Shown: piece after piece, positions 27,127-38,353 of the stretch | Numbering within the stretch: position 1 is the first letter of the stretch | Layout of the letters: each line of letters starts with the position of its first letter | Assembly (NCBI GenBank): GCA_022822265.1 | Contig: JAJECA010000020.1 | Coordinates: 53,524-117,523, forward strand | DNA length: 64,000 bases | Reading direction: 5' to 3' | From: Acidimicrobiia bacterium | Lineage (GTDB): Bacteria > Actinomycetota > Acidimicrobiia > Acidimicrobiales > Bin134 | Notes under the pieces: model-generated | The model's database searches: none | Told to the model about the DNA's origin: nothing | The model's input: the letters and a program-made list of their open reading frames with translations, nothing else | Made by a program: the position numbers and the translations under genes

Positions 27127-27396
27127 ATGGATCCTGTGCCCACCCGGCGTATTGCCGCAACCGAGTTCAAAAACCGGAGTCTGGGATTGCTAAAGGAAGT
27201 CGCAGAGACCGGCGAACCCCTCACAGTGACCAGCCACGGGCACCCCATTGTTCACATAATCCCCACGAACGAGAGTCCGCTGGGAATCTTGGGATGCGCC
27301 CCGGAATGGCGGGGGCTTATGGACGACCCTGAGTACTCCCCCTTTAGCGAGGAGGAGTGGGCGCAGTTCGCCGCAGACCGGACCACAGCCGTCTAG
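27127..27396 (+). CDS. Phd/YefM-type antitoxin
   Basis: RRIAATEFKNRSLGLLKEVAETGEPLTVTSHGHPIVHIIP; upstream of PIN toxin. Confidence 0.85.
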   Translation: MDPVPTRRIAATEFKNRSLGLLKEVAETGEPLTVTSHGHPIVHIIPTNESPLGILGCAPEWRGLMDDPEYSPFSEEEWAQFAADRTTAV

Positions 27397-27410
27397 GGCC
27401 GCGACCGCCC

Positions 27411-27830
27411 ATGATCCTTCTCGACACCCATGTGTTGATCTGGGTGGCCTCTCAGAACACGGCAAAGCTCGACGCGGAGAAGCTGGAAGCGTTGGATGCG
27501 ACCATTAGAGAAGGCTCGGCGGCCGTATCGTCGGTGACATTCTGGGAACTGGAGCATGCCCGGCGGGATCCCGCCAACAGCGTGTCGTCGTCTTGGTCGA
27601 CGAGGGAGGTGCGACAGCGGTTGCTCGCACGAGGTCTCATTGATGTGACACCGACCGCGGAAGTGTTCATAGCCTCGGTGGAACTGGGAGACACGGGTTT
27701 CCACAGCGATCCGATGGATCGCATCATCGCAGCTACAGCCATCAACCGCGGTTGGCCACTGGCCACATTCGACAGGCGCATCATCGCTTGGGCGAACCAA
27801 ACAGGACGTTTGCAGCTTCACCCTTCATAA
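27411..27830 (+). CDS. PIN-domain VapC-type toxin
   Basis: ATG 27411: MILLDTHVLIW...FWELE...DPMDRIIAATA...TFDRRI. Confidence 0.9.
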   Translation: MILLDTHVLIWVASQNTAKLDAEKLEALDATIREGSAAVSSVTFWELEHARRDPANSVSSSWSTREVRQRLLARGLIDVTPTAEVFIASVELGDTGFHSDPMDRIIAATAINRGWPLATFDRRIIAWANQTGRLQLHPS

Positions 27831-27918: not shown

Positions 27919-27962
27919 CCTCAGGGGTCTTGGGGGCATCGGTTCGGGTCTTGGGGCCAGCC
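27919..27962. repeat. 44-bp direct repeat, copy A
   Basis: CCTCAGGGGTCTTGGGGGCATCGGTTCGGGTCTTGGGGCCAGCC, identical to 30015-30058. Confidence 0.9.
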
Positions 27963-30035
27963 CGCCTCTTGGCGGTTTGCGCAGCCGATGAAGAAGCGTG
28001 TCTGTAGAGGGTTTGAGGTTTGCATTGCCGTTTCCCAGGAGACTGGTTGGCATCCGACGTCATCGCCGATTGACATCAGCGAGCAGTCACGTTGGTGGTC
28101 GAATCCGAACAGGCTGTGGCCGAGTTCGTGGGTGACGGTAGCGAGATAGCGCCAGAAGACAAATTGGCGGCAGTTCGCGCCCGACAGGCAAGCCCACCGA
28201 TTCCTGTCGAACCAATCGGAGAGCGATTCGACTGTGGCTGCCTCGGCGACGGTGGCGGCCCTTCCAACGCCGTTATCGTCTGTCAGCCAGACTCGGCCGT
28301 ATCCATAGCCAAAGGCCTCGTCAACTGTGGCGTCCATGAGGACGAGTACGTGCCAAAGGTCGGATTGTGGGGGTTCCTGTTGGATTTCCGACGAACACAT
28401 AACGATTCGGGGATTGAGGAAGTGTTCCGATGAGGTGGATTTGGTGCTCCAGTCGATGTCGGGGCTGACGATACCAGCAGGGATGAACTCTAAATGGGCG
28501 AGGCCGCCGGACTCTTGAGCGTAGAACGGGGCAATGGTCTGGTTGAATTGGGCGGTTTCGTGTTCGAGGTCGGTTTGGGTGTATTTGCCTTGGCGGGCGC
28601 AGTAGAACACGTGCACTTCGAATTTGCCGGTGGTCTTGGCGGGGCCACTGCACCAGGAGCACCAGGAGATAGAAGAGGCGTGGGATGTGGGCCATGTGGT
28701 GGCGGTGGTGTCGCCCCAGCATTTGACGGTGCCGTCGGGGCGCAGTCCGCATGCGGAGGCGGCGCCCGCCGACACTGACGCGAACTGGCCGGGCGGCGCG
28801 TCTAGTTCTCCGAATGTTCCGGCGGTGGGCGGTCCCCAGCACACTGCGGTGTTGTCGTCGCGCAGCCCGCAGGCCAGGCTCTGTCCGGCCGACACTTCCT
28901 GGAATTGGCCTTGGGGGGCGTTGTAGCCGCGGCGGAGGTTGTTGCCCCAGCACGTCGCGGTGTGGTCTTGTCGGATGCCGCAGGAGAACCAGAACCCCGC
29001 CGACACCGATGTGAACTGTCCCTGGGGTGCGTCGAGGCGGCCGTGGGTGTTGTCGCCCCAGCACACCAGGGTGTGGTCTTCTCGGATGCCGCAGGCGTGT
29101 TCCCATCCTGCCGACACCGATGTGAACCGTCCGTCGGGTGCGTCGAGGCGTCCGTGTTTGTTGTCGCCCCAGCACACCGCGGTTCGGTCTGTTCTGATGC
29201 CGCAGGCGAAGTCCGACCAATCGATGCCCGCCGACACCGATGTGAACCGTCCCTCGGGCGAGGACGCCGACTCGAATTGCCAGTTGTAGGTCCAGCACTG
29301 CGCGGCCTGGTCGACTCGCACTCCGCAGGCGAGGTTGCGTCCGGCCGACACCGATGCGAACCGGCCTTTGGCGGGGCCGTGGTCTGCCCACGACAGCGGG
29401 GCGTAGCCGTGGGGGTCGGTGCACATGACGGTCTGGTCGTCCCGCAGCCCGCACCACCGCCCGCTGGCGCTCCGCCCCGAGAGCGAAACAAGGCAATGCT
29501 GCGACCCCGAGCAGTCCACCGGGGCGCGGTGTGCGGCCCGCAGGGCGGCCACCGCGGCGTCGTCGAGCACCAAATAGCAGAGGTTGTGGACGGCGTTGTA
29601 GCCCCACTGCACCGTGGCGAGGGTGGTCTGGCCGTCGGCGGTCTTGGCGACGGGCACGGGCTCGCCGGCGAAGCCCCGATCGGGGTTGTAGGCGCGCTCG
29701 CACCGCTCCGCAGCAGCCTGATCGCCCGGCGCGGGCGCGGAGGCTCGGGGGGCGTTGGCCCGCAGGGAGGCCACCGCGGCGTTGTCCAAGACGAGGTAGC
29801 AGAGGTTGTGGGCGGCGTTGTAGCCCCACTGGACCGTGGCGAGGGTGGTCTGGCCGTCGGCGGTCTTGGCGACGGGCACCGGGCCGTGGGCGAAGCGGAA
29901 CAAACCAGCACACCCCGCACCACCCGCCACAGACTCCCCGGCCACCGGCACCCCCACCAGCAGGCAGACAACCACAAGAACACCAGCCCAGCGCCGCCTG
30001 GCTGCGGTCTCGGCCCTCAGGGGTCTTGGGGGCAT
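27921..30035 (-). CDS. secreted protein: 2x unrecognised N-terminal module + RCC1-like propeller (about 7 units) + C-terminal HExxH zinc-protease-like region (paralog 1)
   Basis: Likely ATG 30035; signal peptide RRRWAGVLVVVCLLVGVPVAG; GRFTSVSAG...ACGI..D.T.VCWGDN repeats; HELGHSLFGFDHQRDCSLM. Confidence 0.85.
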   Translation of the reverse strand: MPPRPLRAETAARRRWAGVLVVVCLLVGVPVAGESVAGGAGCAGLFRFAHGPVPVAKTADGQTTLATVQWGYNAAHNLCYLVLDNAAVASLRANAPRASAPAPGDQAAAERCERAYNPDRGFAGEPVPVAKTADGQTTLATVQWGYNAVHNLCYLVLDDAAVAALRAAHRAPVDCSGSQHCLVSLSGRSASGRWCGLRDDQTVMCTDPHGYAPLSWADHGPAKGRFASVSAGRNLACGVRVDQAAQCWTYNWQFESASSPEGRFTSVSAGIDWSDFACGIRTDRTAVCWGDNKHGRLDAPDGRFTSVSAGWEHACGIREDHTLVCWGDNTHGRLDAPQGQFTSVSAGFWFSCGIRQDHTATCWGNNLRRGYNAPQGQFQEVSAGQSLACGLRDDNTAVCWGPPTAGTFGELDAPPGQFASVSAGAASACGLRPDGTVKCWGDTTATTWPTSHASSISWCSWCSGPAKTTGKFEVHVFYCARQGKYTQTDLEHETAQFNQTIAPFYAQESGGLAHLEFIPAGIVSPDIDWSTKSTSSEHFLNPRIVMCSSEIQQEPPQSDLWHVLVLMDATVDEAFGYGYGRVWLTDDNGVGRAATVAEAATVESLSDWFDRNRWACLSGANCRQFVFWRYLATVTHELGHSLFGFDHQRDCSLMSIGDDVGCQPVSWETAMQTSNPLQTRFFIGCANRQEAGWPQDPNRCPQDP
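29533..29700 (-). repeat. PVPVAKTADGQTTLATVQWGYN module, copy 2 of paralog 1
   Basis: Encodes NPDRGFAGEPVPVAKTADGQTTLATVQWGYNAVHNLCYLVLDDAAVAALRAA. Confidence 0.85.
29758..29898 (-). repeat. PVPVAKTADGQTTLATVQWGYN module, copy 1 of paralog 1
   Basis: Encodes RFAHGPVPVAKTADGQTTLATVQWGYNAAHNLCYLVLDNAAVASLRA. Confidence 0.85.
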
Positions 30036-30058
30036 CGGTTCGGGTCTTGGGGCCAGCC
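30015..30058. repeat. 44-bp direct repeat, copy B
   Basis: Identical to 27919-27962; holds 3' end of paralog 2 and start of paralog 1. Confidence 0.9.
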
Positions 30059-32179
30059 GGCTCGGCGGCGATCGGCGCAGCCGACGTAGGCGGTTTGCAG
30101 CATATTGGGGCTCCTGAGGGTGTCGTCCATGTTCTGGGCGCGCACTGCCGGGCACGCCCACGGATTGCCGCTCATGATCGAGCAGTCGGGCGGGTGGCCA
30201 AATCCGAACAGGGCGTGGCCGATTTCATGGGCAACGACGTAGTCGTAGACCCAGTAGGCAAGGTCCCGACAGCTGGTGTTGTGGCCAGCCCGGATGTTGC
30301 CGCTTTCAGTGTCTTTGCCGGAAGAGGCGTTGCTGGGACTGGGAAGATCACGCACCAACCAGGGCGAGACATCCTTGGAGCAGATGCGGCGGCTGGCATA
30401 GAGTGCCTCTACGGTGGGTATGAGGACCACGTGCCCTGCGCAGGCGCTGGGGCAGTCGCCGTTGTGATCTCTGGGTGAGATGTCCGCGAGGACGAGCTTG
30501 TGCTGGAAGCGGGCTCCGGGGTATCCGTGCTCGGCCGACTGAGCGCAGGGAGGGGACTTTCCCGGACTCGTTAGCTCTGCAAACAGGGAGTTGATGGTGG
30601 CGGTGTCCCAGTCGATGTCGGGGGACGATACGGCGGCGGGAAGGAATCTGACGTCGGCGATCCCGGAGGACTCTCGGGTGTAGAAGGCTGTTACGATGTC
30701 GTTCATCCGGTCGGTCTCGAATTGGAGGTCGGCTTGGGTGTATTTGCCCTGGGCGGCGCAGATGAACACGTACACGTCGTATTTGCTCGGCTGGGTCCAT
30801 GGGGTGGCGGCGCTGTCCCAGCACAGCGCGGCCAGCGACTCTGAGAGAGCACAGGGTGCTGGCCATTTCGTTTCTAGAACGGCTCCCCAGCACTCTCGGG
30901 TGTTGTCGGGGCGCAGGCCGCAGGCCTGGCCGGTGCCGGCCGACACCGACGCGAACCGGCCCGGTGGCGTGTCGAGCTCTCCGAATGTGCCGGCGCCGGG
31001 CGGCCCCCAGCACACTGCGGTGTCGTCGGGGCGCAGGCCGCAGGCCAGGCCCTGGCCGGCCGAGACCGCTTGGAACTGGCCTTGGGGGGCGTTGTAGCCG
31101 CGGCGAAGGTTGTTGCCCCAGCACGTCGCGGTCCGGTCGTCTTTGATGCCGCAGGAGAACCAGAATCCCGCCGACACCGATCTGAATTGGCCGTCGGGCG
31201 CGTCTAGGCGGCCGTGTTTGTTGTCGCCCCAGCAGTCCACCGTCTGGTCTTGTCGGATGCCGCAGGCGAACACGTCCAACCCGATGCCCGCCGACACCGA
31301 TGTGAACCGGCCCTGAGGTGAAGATGCGGGTGAGAAAAGCGGATCGTAACCCCAGCACAGCACCCCGCCGCTGGCCAGCACCCCGCATGCTTGCCGGCGG
31401 CCCGCGGACACCGATGTGAACCGGCCCCCCGGAGCGCCGTGCTCGCCGGTCAAGAACCGGACGTCGCGATTCTCGTCGGTGCACAAGGCGATGCCGTCGC
31501 CCCGCAGCCCGCACCAGAGCCCCCGGTCGGCCCGGGCCGACACCGAAACCAGCCCCGCGTCCTCCCCGGCACCCGCCCACAGGATCGCAGGCAGACCGGC
31601 GTCGCCCACATAACCGCCCGCCTCGGCTGCTGGCCGGGCTGCGGCCCGCAGGGCGGCCACCGCGGCGTCGTCGAGCACCAAATAGCAGAGGTTGTGGACG
31701 GCGTTGTAGCCCCACTGCACCGTCGCGAGGGTGGTCTGGCCGTCGGCGGTCTTGGCGACGGGCACGGGCTGGCCGGCGAAGCCCCGATCGGGGTTGTAGG
31801 CGCGCTGGCACCGCTCAGCCGACGCCTGGTCCCCAGACGCGGAAACGCGCCCCTGGGGGGCGCTGGCCCGCAATACGGCCACCGCGGCGTCGTCGAGCAC
31901 CAAATAGCAGAGGTTGTGGGCGGCGTTGTAGCCCCACTGGACTGTGGCGAGGGTGGTCTGGCCGTCGGCGGTCTTGGCGACGGGCACCGGGCCGTGGGCG
32001 AAGCGGAACAAACCAGCGCACCCCGCCCCGTCCGCCACAGACTGTGCAGCAACAGCCGACGAAGCCGACACCGCAGGCACCCCCACCACCAGGCTGACAG
32101 CCACGACTGCCACGGCTCTGTGCAGCCTTGATCGGGTGCGGCCCGAAACCAGCAGCCTTCCACCCATGAAGGAACCCAC
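30017..32179 (-). CDS. secreted protein: 2x unrecognised N-terminal module + RCC1-like propeller (about 6 units) + C-terminal HExxH zinc-protease-like region (paralog 2)
   Basis: Signal peptide AVAVVAVSLVVGVPAVSASSAVA; RCC1-like units; HEIGHALFGFGHPPDCSIMSG. Confidence 0.85.
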   Translation of the reverse strand: MGSFMGGRLLVSGRTRSRLHRAVAVVAVSLVVGVPAVSASSAVAAQSVADGAGCAGLFRFAHGPVPVAKTADGQTTLATVQWGYNAAHNLCYLVLDDAAVAVLRASAPQGRVSASGDQASAERCQRAYNPDRGFAGQPVPVAKTADGQTTLATVQWGYNAVHNLCYLVLDDAAVAALRAAARPAAEAGGYVGDAGLPAILWAGAGEDAGLVSVSARADRGLWCGLRGDGIALCTDENRDVRFLTGEHGAPGGRFTSVSAGRRQACGVLASGGVLCWGYDPLFSPASSPQGRFTSVSAGIGLDVFACGIRQDQTVDCWGDNKHGRLDAPDGQFRSVSAGFWFSCGIKDDRTATCWGNNLRRGYNAPQGQFQAVSAGQGLACGLRPDDTAVCWGPPGAGTFGELDTPPGRFASVSAGTGQACGLRPDNTRECWGAVLETKWPAPCALSESLAALCWDSAATPWTQPSKYDVYVFICAAQGKYTQADLQFETDRMNDIVTAFYTRESSGIADVRFLPAAVSSPDIDWDTATINSLFAELTSPGKSPPCAQSAEHGYPGARFQHKLVLADISPRDHNGDCPSACAGHVVLIPTVEALYASRRICSKDVSPWLVRDLPSPSNASSGKDTESGNIRAGHNTSCRDLAYWVYDYVVAHEIGHALFGFGHPPDCSIMSGNPWACPAVRAQNMDDTLRSPNMLQTAYVGCADRRRAGWPQDPNRCPQDP
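31640..31820 (-). repeat. PVPVAKTADGQTTLATVQWGYN module, copy 2 of paralog 2
   Basis: Near-identical at DNA level to 29533-29700. Confidence 0.85.
31864..32015 (-). repeat. PVPVAKTADGQTTLATVQWGYN module, copy 1 of paralog 2
   Basis: Near-identical at DNA level to 29758-29898. Confidence 0.85.
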
Positions 32180-36043: not shown

Positions 36044-38353
36044 TCAGTTTGAGTTCAGTTCGAACAGGTCTTCGTAAGCCAATGTGTCCAGATCATTGGC
36101 TTGGAGGGCGTTTTCGGACATGGTCCAAAGGGTGTCGCCGATCACTAGCAGGCGTTGGATTGGCGGGGTCCAGATCCAGCAGATGATGAGCTTCTCGTCG
36201 TCGGCGATGTCGAGCGAGGGGAAATCCTCTCTTGCCCACTCGGTCTTGATGGGCTCGCATTCCTGGTTGCCATAGCGCTCAGGGGCGTCGAGGGGGCAAA
36301 TGCGGGCGATGCTTCCGCCACCGCCAAAAACCTGGGCCACTGCGGAGTCGTCCACCGGGCGGCAGCCTTCGAACACGATCTGCTGCTCGCGGTGTGACAC
36401 CCGGCCGAGCTCGGCCACGCCGTCGCGGTTGACCCGCAGGGTAACTGCGCCGAAGAAGCCCTCCTCGTTATCGTCGTAGTCGTAGCGGGTGAGGGGTATG
36501 GCCACCATTTCTTCAGGCGCCCAGTAGAGGAAGGCCCGGTGGTCCCATTCGGCTTCGCTGTGGGCGTCGGGGAACACGATCACGTCGAGCTCGGTTGGAT
36601 TGGCCGGGTTGCCCACGTCAAACAGAGAGACCTTGGTGCCGCGGGTGCGGCCGGTGTCGTCGGCGTCTTGGCCCACGCCGATGAGGAGGCCATCGCCTAT
36701 GGGGTGCAGGTAGGTGGAGAAGCCGGGGATCTTCAGCTCGCCCGCCACCGACGGTGCAGTGGGACTGGCAAGATCGAGCACGTAGAGGGGATCAACCTGG
36801 CGGAAGGTCACCACATAGCCGATGTCGCCCGCGAAGCGGACCGAGAAGATGCGCTCACCCCGGCCCAGGTTGTCCACCTTGCCCACTTCGGTGAGACGTC
36901 GGCCCTGCTGCTCCAGCACCACCACTTGGCTCTCGGAGGTCTCGGTGTCCCATGGCTCGCCGATGGTGGTGGCCACCCGGAAATGGCCGTTGTGCTCGTC
37001 CATGGAGAACTGGTTGAGCAGGTGGCCCTCAACATTGCCGGTGGCCTCGTAGCGGGCCGGTCCGTCGGGCGACACCGAGAACTTGTGGACGGTGGTGGTC
37101 CACTCCGTTGGCGCCGAAATGCTCACCGAGCTGTCGTCGTCTTCGACGGGCTCGGCCCATACCGGGGTGCTGCCAGCCAAAAACAGCGACTGGCCGGAAC
37201 CGTACAGGGTGTGGCCGTCGGCCAGCACCGAGGCGGCGTCGCCGGTGCCCAGCGGCTCGGCCAGGTTGAAGCTCAGTACCGACAGCACGGTAAACCCGTC
37301 GAACTCGGCGGGAGTGTAGAGCTGGTCGCAATCGGGCAGCAGGCCGGCTCGGGTGCCGTCGGGTCCGTCAAAGCGGTAGGCCGGCAGCCAGGCGCCCAGG
37401 TTGGCGGTAGAGGCGATCTCTTTGTTGACCCGCTCGGCGGCTTCCTCGGCGTCTGGGCCATTGGGGTACACGAATTGGAACTGCGCCGGGTAGCTCGACA
37501 TCGACATCCACACCACGTCACCCACAGAGCGGGCGCTGAGGTAGTTGCCCTCCACCCGCAGCTCCGACACCACCTCCATGGAGGCCGGGCTGGACAAATC
37601 CACTTCTTGGATCAGCGACACCGGGCTGCCCCGGAAGATGATGTCGTCGGCGACAACGTGGTCGCCCTCGAGGTCGCGGGCCGCCACCGGCTCCAGCCAG
37701 TCGGCGTAGCTGGTGGAGAACACCATGGCCCGGTCGTCCCGGATGAAGATCTCCTGTCCCCAGCCCGAGTCCGACTCGCCCACGAGATCGACGCTGCCCA
37801 GGTACCGGGGCTGGTCGCCGGAGACGTCCACATAGTGCAGCCGCCCCTGGGCCACGGCCAGGATGCGGTTTCCGTCGGTCTTGATGATGTCGGGCTCGTC
37901 CACCCCAGCCACCTGCACGTTGGTCGAAGAGAATTCGCCGCCGTCGCTGGTAGCTGGCGCGGCCTCCGGGGCCGGGGCTCCGGAATCGTCGGCCATCATC
38001 TCAGATTCTTCAACCATCATCGGCTCGGGGATGCCGAAGCGAGGCCCCTCGTCCAACCCATAGGGTCCTACCCTGCTGACCGTCTCACTCCGCAGGTAGT
38101 CCAACAGCGTGGCGCAATCTCCAAAGCTGCGAAGCGCCGACAAAAGCTCAACGTCGTCCAATGCCACCAAAGGTTCCGAAGTGCCATCTGGCTCGCCTGC
38201 GGGCCCTCTTGGGGCCTCTACTGTGGACTCGCTGGAAATTCCCCCCGTGATCCCCGGAGAGTCTCCACCGTCAGACGAACAGGCCCCAGCCAGCATGGCC
38301 AGCGCAACGGCCATAGCAGACAGGGCAAGTGCGGTACATCGAAGCTTCAGCAT
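36044..38353 (-). CDS. beta-propeller domain lipoprotein
   Basis: Lipobox LAGACSS; NVQVAGVDEPDIIKTDGNRILAVAQGRLHYVDV. Confidence 0.85.
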   Translation of the reverse strand: MLKLRCTALALSAMAVALAMLAGACSSDGGDSPGITGGISSESTVEAPRGPAGEPDGTSEPLVALDDVELLSALRSFGDCATLLDYLRSETVSRVGPYGLDEGPRFGIPEPMMVEESEMMADDSGAPAPEAAPATSDGGEFSSTNVQVAGVDEPDIIKTDGNRILAVAQGRLHYVDVSGDQPRYLGSVDLVGESDSGWGQEIFIRDDRAMVFSTSYADWLEPVAARDLEGDHVVADDIIFRGSPVSLIQEVDLSSPASMEVVSELRVEGNYLSARSVGDVVWMSMSSYPAQFQFVYPNGPDAEEAAERVNKEIASTANLGAWLPAYRFDGPDGTRAGLLPDCDQLYTPAEFDGFTVLSVLSFNLAEPLGTGDAASVLADGHTLYGSGQSLFLAGSTPVWAEPVEDDDSSVSISAPTEWTTTVHKFSVSPDGPARYEATGNVEGHLLNQFSMDEHNGHFRVATTIGEPWDTETSESQVVVLEQQGRRLTEVGKVDNLGRGERIFSVRFAGDIGYVVTFRQVDPLYVLDLASPTAPSVAGELKIPGFSTYLHPIGDGLLIGVGQDADDTGRTRGTKVSLFDVGNPANPTELDVIVFPDAHSEAEWDHRAFLYWAPEEMVAIPLTRYDYDDNEEGFFGAVTLRVNRDGVAELGRVSHREQQIVFEGCRPVDDSAVAQVFGGGGSIARICPLDAPERYGNQECEPIKTEWAREDFPSLDIADDEKLIICWIWTPPIQRLLVIGDTLWTMSENALQANDLDTLAYEDLFELNSN

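Follow-up and report, generated by a model that had tools for sequence, protein, structure and literature searches.

Paired, apparently interchangeable heads on predicted exported propeller and zincin proteins of one Acidimicrobiia genus

Introduction

Two neighbouring genes in a 64,000-nucleotide stretch of contig JAJECA010000020.1 from an Acidimicrobiia bacterium (assembly GCA_022822265.1), here called the window, encode proteins that combine a duplicated N-terminal module with RCC1-like repeats and a zinc-protease motif. This raises the question of whether the combination is an isolated oddity or part of a wider system, and what role the N-terminal module may play. A sequence-only reading had described the genes as adjacent minus-strand paralogs with a signal peptide, and both open reading frames (ORFs) are present with signal-peptide-like starts. 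The duplication of the N-terminal module, here termed module A, was equally confirmed, with two copies per protein and four in the window. The three-part architecture had been regarded as unfamiliar. Family search, AlphaFold2 and Foldseek support the three parts themselves, but the N-terminal module is no part of a fixed three-domain family.

The gene pair

The features of the two genes are collected in Table 1. Signal peptides and the absence of a lipobox were assessed by eye.

Table 1. Features of the gene pair, in window positions
Feature	Position	Strand	Basis or description
Protein 2 (upstream), 720 aa	30017..32179	-	Signal peptide + A-A head + RCC1/crinkly propeller + zincin
Protein 2 signal-peptide-like segment	32045..32179	-	Sequence: a basic start, then a hydrophobic stretch and AVAA; by eye, no lipobox
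Protein 2 module A copy 1	31862..32023	-	
Protein 2 module A copy 2	31640..31813	-	
Protein 2 RCC1/crinkly propeller region	30806..31567	-	Six C-x9-CWG type units + degenerate seventh; approximate boundaries
Protein 2 zincin domain	30020..30790	-	
Protein 2 zinc-site motif HEIGHALFGFGH, then Met-turn-like CSIMS	30194..30229	-	In and just past predicted helix 174-195 of the domain model
Protein 1 (downstream paralog), 746 aa from listed GTG	27921..30161	-	
Protein 1 signal-peptide-like segment	29931..30035	-	Sequence
Protein 1 module A copy 1	29754..29915	-	
Protein 1 module A copy 2	29532..29705	-	
Protein 1 RCC1/crinkly propeller region, seven units	28692..29498	-	Approximate boundaries
Protein 1 zincin domain	27924..28631	-	
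Protein 1 zinc-site motif HELGHSLFGFDH, then Met-turn-like CSLMS	28095..28130	-	

The listed GTG of protein 1 falls within the protein 2 gene. An ATG at 30035, which overlaps the protein 2 stop codon by 19 nt and stands just before the signal-peptide-like segment, is the likelier start and gives a protein of 704 aa. Overall identity between the two proteins is 61% but falls to 43% in the C-terminal domain, which suggests that the domains have diverged at unequal rates or were exchanged. The genes flanking the pair are unrelated to it and encode a PIN domain, an S9 peptidase, phosphoglycerate dehydrogenase, isopropylmalate synthase and aconitase. The PIN-domain protein adjoins the pair on the plus strand (27357-27830) and is probably a toxin-antitoxin component. 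A further beta-propeller protein (PF09826) is encoded on the minus strand at 36044-38353, approximately 4 kb from the pair.

The propeller

RCC1_2 (PF13540) is the sole repeat family over its Pfam cut-off (22 bits) in the window pair, scoring 108 and 65 bits (E 1e-31 and 3.5e-18). The only significant sequence relative in the PDB is the crinkly extracellular domain of ACR4, a plant receptor (E 9.4e-25 and 7.6e-20). The earlier count of six or seven two-cysteine RCC1 units is better given as seven in each protein by pattern count, protein 2 having six canonical units and one that is degenerate. Many relatives have 13-15 RCC1/crinkly units by the same kind of count. Both numbers would fit one, two or more seven-bladed propellers, the blades being deduced from the repeat count. 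Matches to phage families in PHROGs were weak and restricted to the RCC1-like repeat regions, and lend no support to a phage origin.

BLIP-II of an actinobacterium is a secreted seven-bladed propeller of the RCC1 type. The window pair would resemble BLIP-II, which is cited in PMC4617170, and other bacterial RCC1-repeat proteins in this respect, but has a fused protease and a paired head, which those proteins are not known to carry. Seven crinkly repeats with the pattern C(X~10)CWG are the defining feature of the CR4/ACR4 family (PMC4617170). With the CRINKLY4/ACR4 propeller (PDB 7a0j) the window proteins share secreted units, this cysteine pattern, seven repeats and a significant sequence match. 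They differ from it in carrying a protease and a new head in place of a TNFR-like domain and kinase, for which the window pair gave no Pfam match.

The zincin domain

The C-terminal zinc-protease motif and the CSxMS residues noted in the sequence-only reading are present, the motifs reading HELGHSLFGFDHQRDCSLMS and HEIGHALFGFGHPPDCSIMS. The interpretation as a zinc protease gained a predicted metzincin fold (AlphaFold2, Foldseek), but has to accommodate a third histidine one residue beyond the canonical spacing. Compared with HEXXHXXGXXH, the motif HExGHxxFGFxH has one extra residue. The HEXXHX6H form is found in both window proteins and in nearly all relatives, with the canonical spacing only in L086. 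The metzincin signature HEXXHXXGXXH/D is thereby lacking in the window pair. CSLMS or CSIMS follows the motif as a candidate Met-turn, recognised by sequence only.

Structure prediction had been proposed for the two proteins and was carried out on domains, with a zincin fold for the C-terminal domain and a confident fold for the module A pair. The zincin model was built with AlphaFold2 on an alignment of nine C-terminal domains (pTM 0.81, mean pLDDT 76.9), and the HExxH lies within a long predicted helix. When this model was compared with the PDB using Foldseek, all 50 of the 50 matches listed were metalloproteases, nearly all of them metzincins (adamalysin, ADAMTS, fragilysin), at modest TM-scores of about 0.2-0.55. 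The best was ecarin (E 4.4e-4), the sole listed match below 1e-3. Pfam reprolysin (M12B) matches fell below the cut-off, at best 16.3 bits against 27 in the first member, and were weak elsewhere. Searched against PDB sequences, the zincin profile matched snake-venom metalloproteinase and stromelysin at E 0.07-0.7, behind protein A-like helices. The latter align to the long first helix only and were dismissed as chance matches. Matches of the protein 2 N-terminus to Cre recombinase were weak (E 0.13 or worse) and were likewise set aside.

On the model, the C-terminal domain looks like a metzincin and probably works like one, although it fails the usual sequence signature of the clan. With the adamalysin/reprolysin-like metzincins (M12B; snake venom, ADAM(TS)) it shares the predicted fold, the HExxH helix, [IL]MS and a downstream third histidine. 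It differs from them in that this histidine comes one residue later (HEXXHX6H), the motif glycine is displaced or missing and the Pfam match is below cut-off. In a 398-genome order sample, profile searches placed the domain in 13 of 18 listed genus members and in three other genomes only, and in a 299-genome phylum sample it occurred in the window's own genome only.

Other peptidase-like and N-terminal domains were seen alongside. A second peptidase-like domain, HE[VT]AHAL...H, occurs in the window's own genome with approximately 14 RCC1 units and no head (L024:3828-6938). In the relatives L087 and L092 this domain has an A head and no RCC1, which is further shuffling. The zincin relatives L138 and L145 have in common an N-terminal domain, WYVNDNPSL.GPSRYW..., which differs from A, B (the second paired module, described below) and CWB2 and is possibly another head.

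Module A

In the members tested, module A exceeded no Pfam or NCBIfam cut-off, and it matched no sequence in the PDB. Neither CWB2, SLH nor dockerin was matched by the A head in Pfam, where it produced scattered sub-cut-off matches to unrelated families only. Zn_ribbon_9, BAT and phage zinc-binding families were among the candidates rejected, as their matches were sub-cut-off and inconsistent between members. The tandem pair was modelled with a pLDDT of 88.5 and a pTM of 0.81, each copy consisting of helix-strand-strand-strand-helix and containing two cysteines that are invariant or nearly so. Foldseek of the predicted pair returned nothing better than E 1.0.

The restriction of A to the genus is drawn from genome samples and one pattern scan. 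Within the window's genus, 17 of 22 genomes carry the module; 127 other relatives gave no match. Among 396 class genomes there were five matches, all within the genus, and outside it the count was zero in about 500 class genomes sampled. Scanning 85,488 species genomes with a pattern retrieved only metagenome-assembled genomes labelled Acidimicrobiia, Acidimicrobiales or marine group Sva0996, plus G021 of the same genus. The five genus members without module A have smaller genomes of 1.8-2.8 Mb. Their lack of A implies that the module is not essential, and module B may serve instead.

The tandem A pair stands directly after a signal-peptide-like start, at fixed spacing, in 42 of 54 A ORFs. Per-genome counts are lower bounds. 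Several ORFs end at contig ends or frameshifts, and several single-copy cases of A or B are visibly cut or frameshifted. The A-headed genes L105, L098 and L102 are broken by apparent frameshifts, stops or masked stretches, from either assembly error or decay.

A survey of the domains that co-occur with the N-terminal module had also been suggested, and it did place propellers and proteases among its many bodies, in the window's genus only. By Pfam, A-headed bodies include propellers alone, a GDSL esterase, RCC1 with Big_12 and CAP, FN3 arrays, and PD40 with LRR. The order of head, propeller and zincin seen in the window pair recurs in L090. In L082 and L093 the zincin precedes the propeller, in L111 it lies between propellers, and in L104, also within the genus, an SLH domain is located between the A head and the zincin. 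As the parts occur in several orders within the genus, they represent a family of shuffled architectures rather than one odd protein.

Module B

The second paired module, B, has the consensus LIAxQExLLNxYRCxFDIDTQxVPGGC. There is no homology between A and B by hhalign (probability 0.15%). Module B was present in all 11 genus members of the order-wide sample, the smaller genomes of the genus included, with at least 25 copies in the richest genome. It was absent from the other genomes of the order sample and from the others of the phylum sample; the genus restriction of B is drawn from these samples. Its tandem pair follows straight after a signal-peptide-like start in 46 of 52 B ORFs, again at fixed spacing. 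B-headed bodies comprise RCC1, zincin, Amidase_3, transglycosylase, Trypsin_2, an OpuAC substrate-binding protein and PD40. The OpuAC-type protein, of the ABC substrate-binding kind, is encoded in the window's own genome (L163:2179-3588) and has a signal peptide and a B-B head with no evident lipobox. It offers a natural test case for retention by the head. In L172:6465-13001, which encodes a cadherin-repeat protein exceeding 2100 residues, the B pair lies at the extreme C-terminus.

Tandem arrays of B-headed genes were also observed. One in G015 contains eight genes approximately 1.05 kb apart with near-identical bodies, AEELWGGGTGWAYNSRG... (L169:3296-12106), and one in G007 contains three genes of the same spacing, their near-identical bodies again reading AEELWGGGTGWAYNSRG... 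(L173:3327-6558).

Exchange of heads

The genus places A or B on dozens of different exported proteins, and the two never occurred in one ORF among the ORFs found. The A-headed L093:5904-8633 and the B-headed L179:2991-5645 share a zincin and propeller body at 82% identity across 743 aa. Aligned as DNA, the two match at 86.5% identity across 2215 bp, from just past the heads onwards, and no DNA match is reported for the heads themselves. This is evidently a clean head swap on nearly one body. The PD40 bodies of L091 (A) and L121 (B) are 40.5% identical over 375 aa. A maximum-likelihood tree of 25 zincins, with an arbitrary midpoint root, requires on its well-supported branches alone a minimum of four changes for label A and three for label B, switches to “other or unknown head” being counted among them.

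The duplicated N-terminal module of the window pair is thus, judging from these comparisons, one of two interchangeable heads across a genus-specific secretome, in which zincin, propeller and heads evidently recombine freely. The natural swap on the 82% identical body is a ready-made test of the role of each head.

Proposed role of the heads

On balance, it is somewhat probable that A and B are interchangeable display modules, with the window pair as an exported, envelope-held propeller and zinc peptidase. The window genes would represent a duplicated pair of exported modular proteolytic proteins. A Sec-type signal would direct export, and the paired A head may then hold the protein at the envelope of the producing cell. 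The seven-unit, disulfide-bearing RCC1/crinkly propeller would bind a target outside the cell, and the adamalysin-like zinc peptidase would cut a nearby protein, perhaps of the host matrix or of competitors. That a propeller presents a protease, as supposed earlier, is consistent with the evidence. A and B would be used interchangeably across much of the surface proteome of the genus, as are the CWB2 and SLH repeats in other Gram-positives.

Retention at the envelope is suggested by cargo that acts at the producer's own surface, namely wall hydrolases and the ABC substrate-binding protein with no evident lipobox. It is further suggested by the swapping of both heads without change of body, and by the presence of CWB2 in the N-terminal part of a zincin relative from outside the genus (L141), where the sequence before the zincin matches CWB2 above the Pfam cut-off. 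The zincin protein L140, of the same outside family, has a CWB2-like N-terminus by eye but no CWB2 match. CWB2 repeats are a proven non-covalent wall anchor on proteases and peptidoglycan enzymes of C. difficile (PMC4973711). This family (PF04122) resembles A and B as a constant tandem module on varied bodies, proteases and peptidoglycan enzymes among them, within one genome, and it fills the head position in L141. A and B differ from it in having no CWB2 match, in occurring in twos and not threes, in their conserved cysteines, in their restriction to one genus in the samples, and in that their anchoring role is a presumed one. Neither head matched any known wall-binding family. The best reading is that A and B may be new, interchangeable surface-retention modules.

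The paired and terminal copies, the very diverse cargo and the two mutually exclusive types would also suit dockerin-like modules that dock into extracellular protein complexes or scaffolds instead of anchoring to wall polymers. The giant cadherin protein with its C-terminal B could be such a scaffold. Docking is nonetheless considered unlikely, as the proteins scanned gave no match to dockerin or cohesin families and no partner module turned up, and an ABC substrate-binding protein and peptidoglycan hydrolases would be odd cargo for a cellulosome-like system. The same cargo bears on the proposal that the heads bind the host (sponge) or a shared extracellular matrix, with a released propeller-protease pair that remodels host matrix or immune proteins. 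As B is located on housekeeping envelope enzymes and a substrate-binding protein that are bound to work at the producer's cell, and is present in small genomes too, this seems quite improbable, even with a cargo rich in adhesive repeats (FN3, cadherin, LRR, RCC1) and with smaller genus genomes that lack both module A and the RCC1 expansion. Finally, the position directly behind the signal peptide and the two (nearly) invariant cysteines of each A copy could mean that the heads assist the folding of disulfide-rich secreted proteins or act as their propeptides, to be cut off on maturation. It is very doubtful that this is their role, since propeptides would not be expected on non-enzymes, at fixed paired spacing, or swapped between unrelated families on near-identical bodies, and one large protein has B at its very C-terminus.

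Retention by the heads at the producer's surface is still preferred. A broader proposal, put forward tentatively as a possibility, is that A and B represent two new kinds of display module, unrelated to each other and with the fold of A unseen in the PDB, that form a genus-wide plug-in system of surface display. Heads would be exchanged by recombination, and proteases, propellers and adhesins presented to the host of a sponge-associated lineage.

Ecology

Several of the module-bearing genomes have names that look to be of sponge type and are presumably sponge-derived, which would also agree with binding of the heads to host matrix. For bin134, a further genome with module A, the documented source is Aplysina aerophoba, a sponge (PMC5649159). 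According to a survey of genomes from reef demosponges, Actinobacteriota have few or no eukaryotic-like repeats and may rely on other mechanisms to sustain the association (PMC8163846). The head-swapping secretome, with its propellers, proteases, FN3, LRR and cadherin, is a plausible candidate for host association in the Actinobacteriota. The A and B heads would serve as short tags by which the surface proteome of this uncultured lineage could be predicted and pulled out. RCC1_2 matches per genome range from 38 to at least 71 in genus members with module A, against 0-9 in the five without it.
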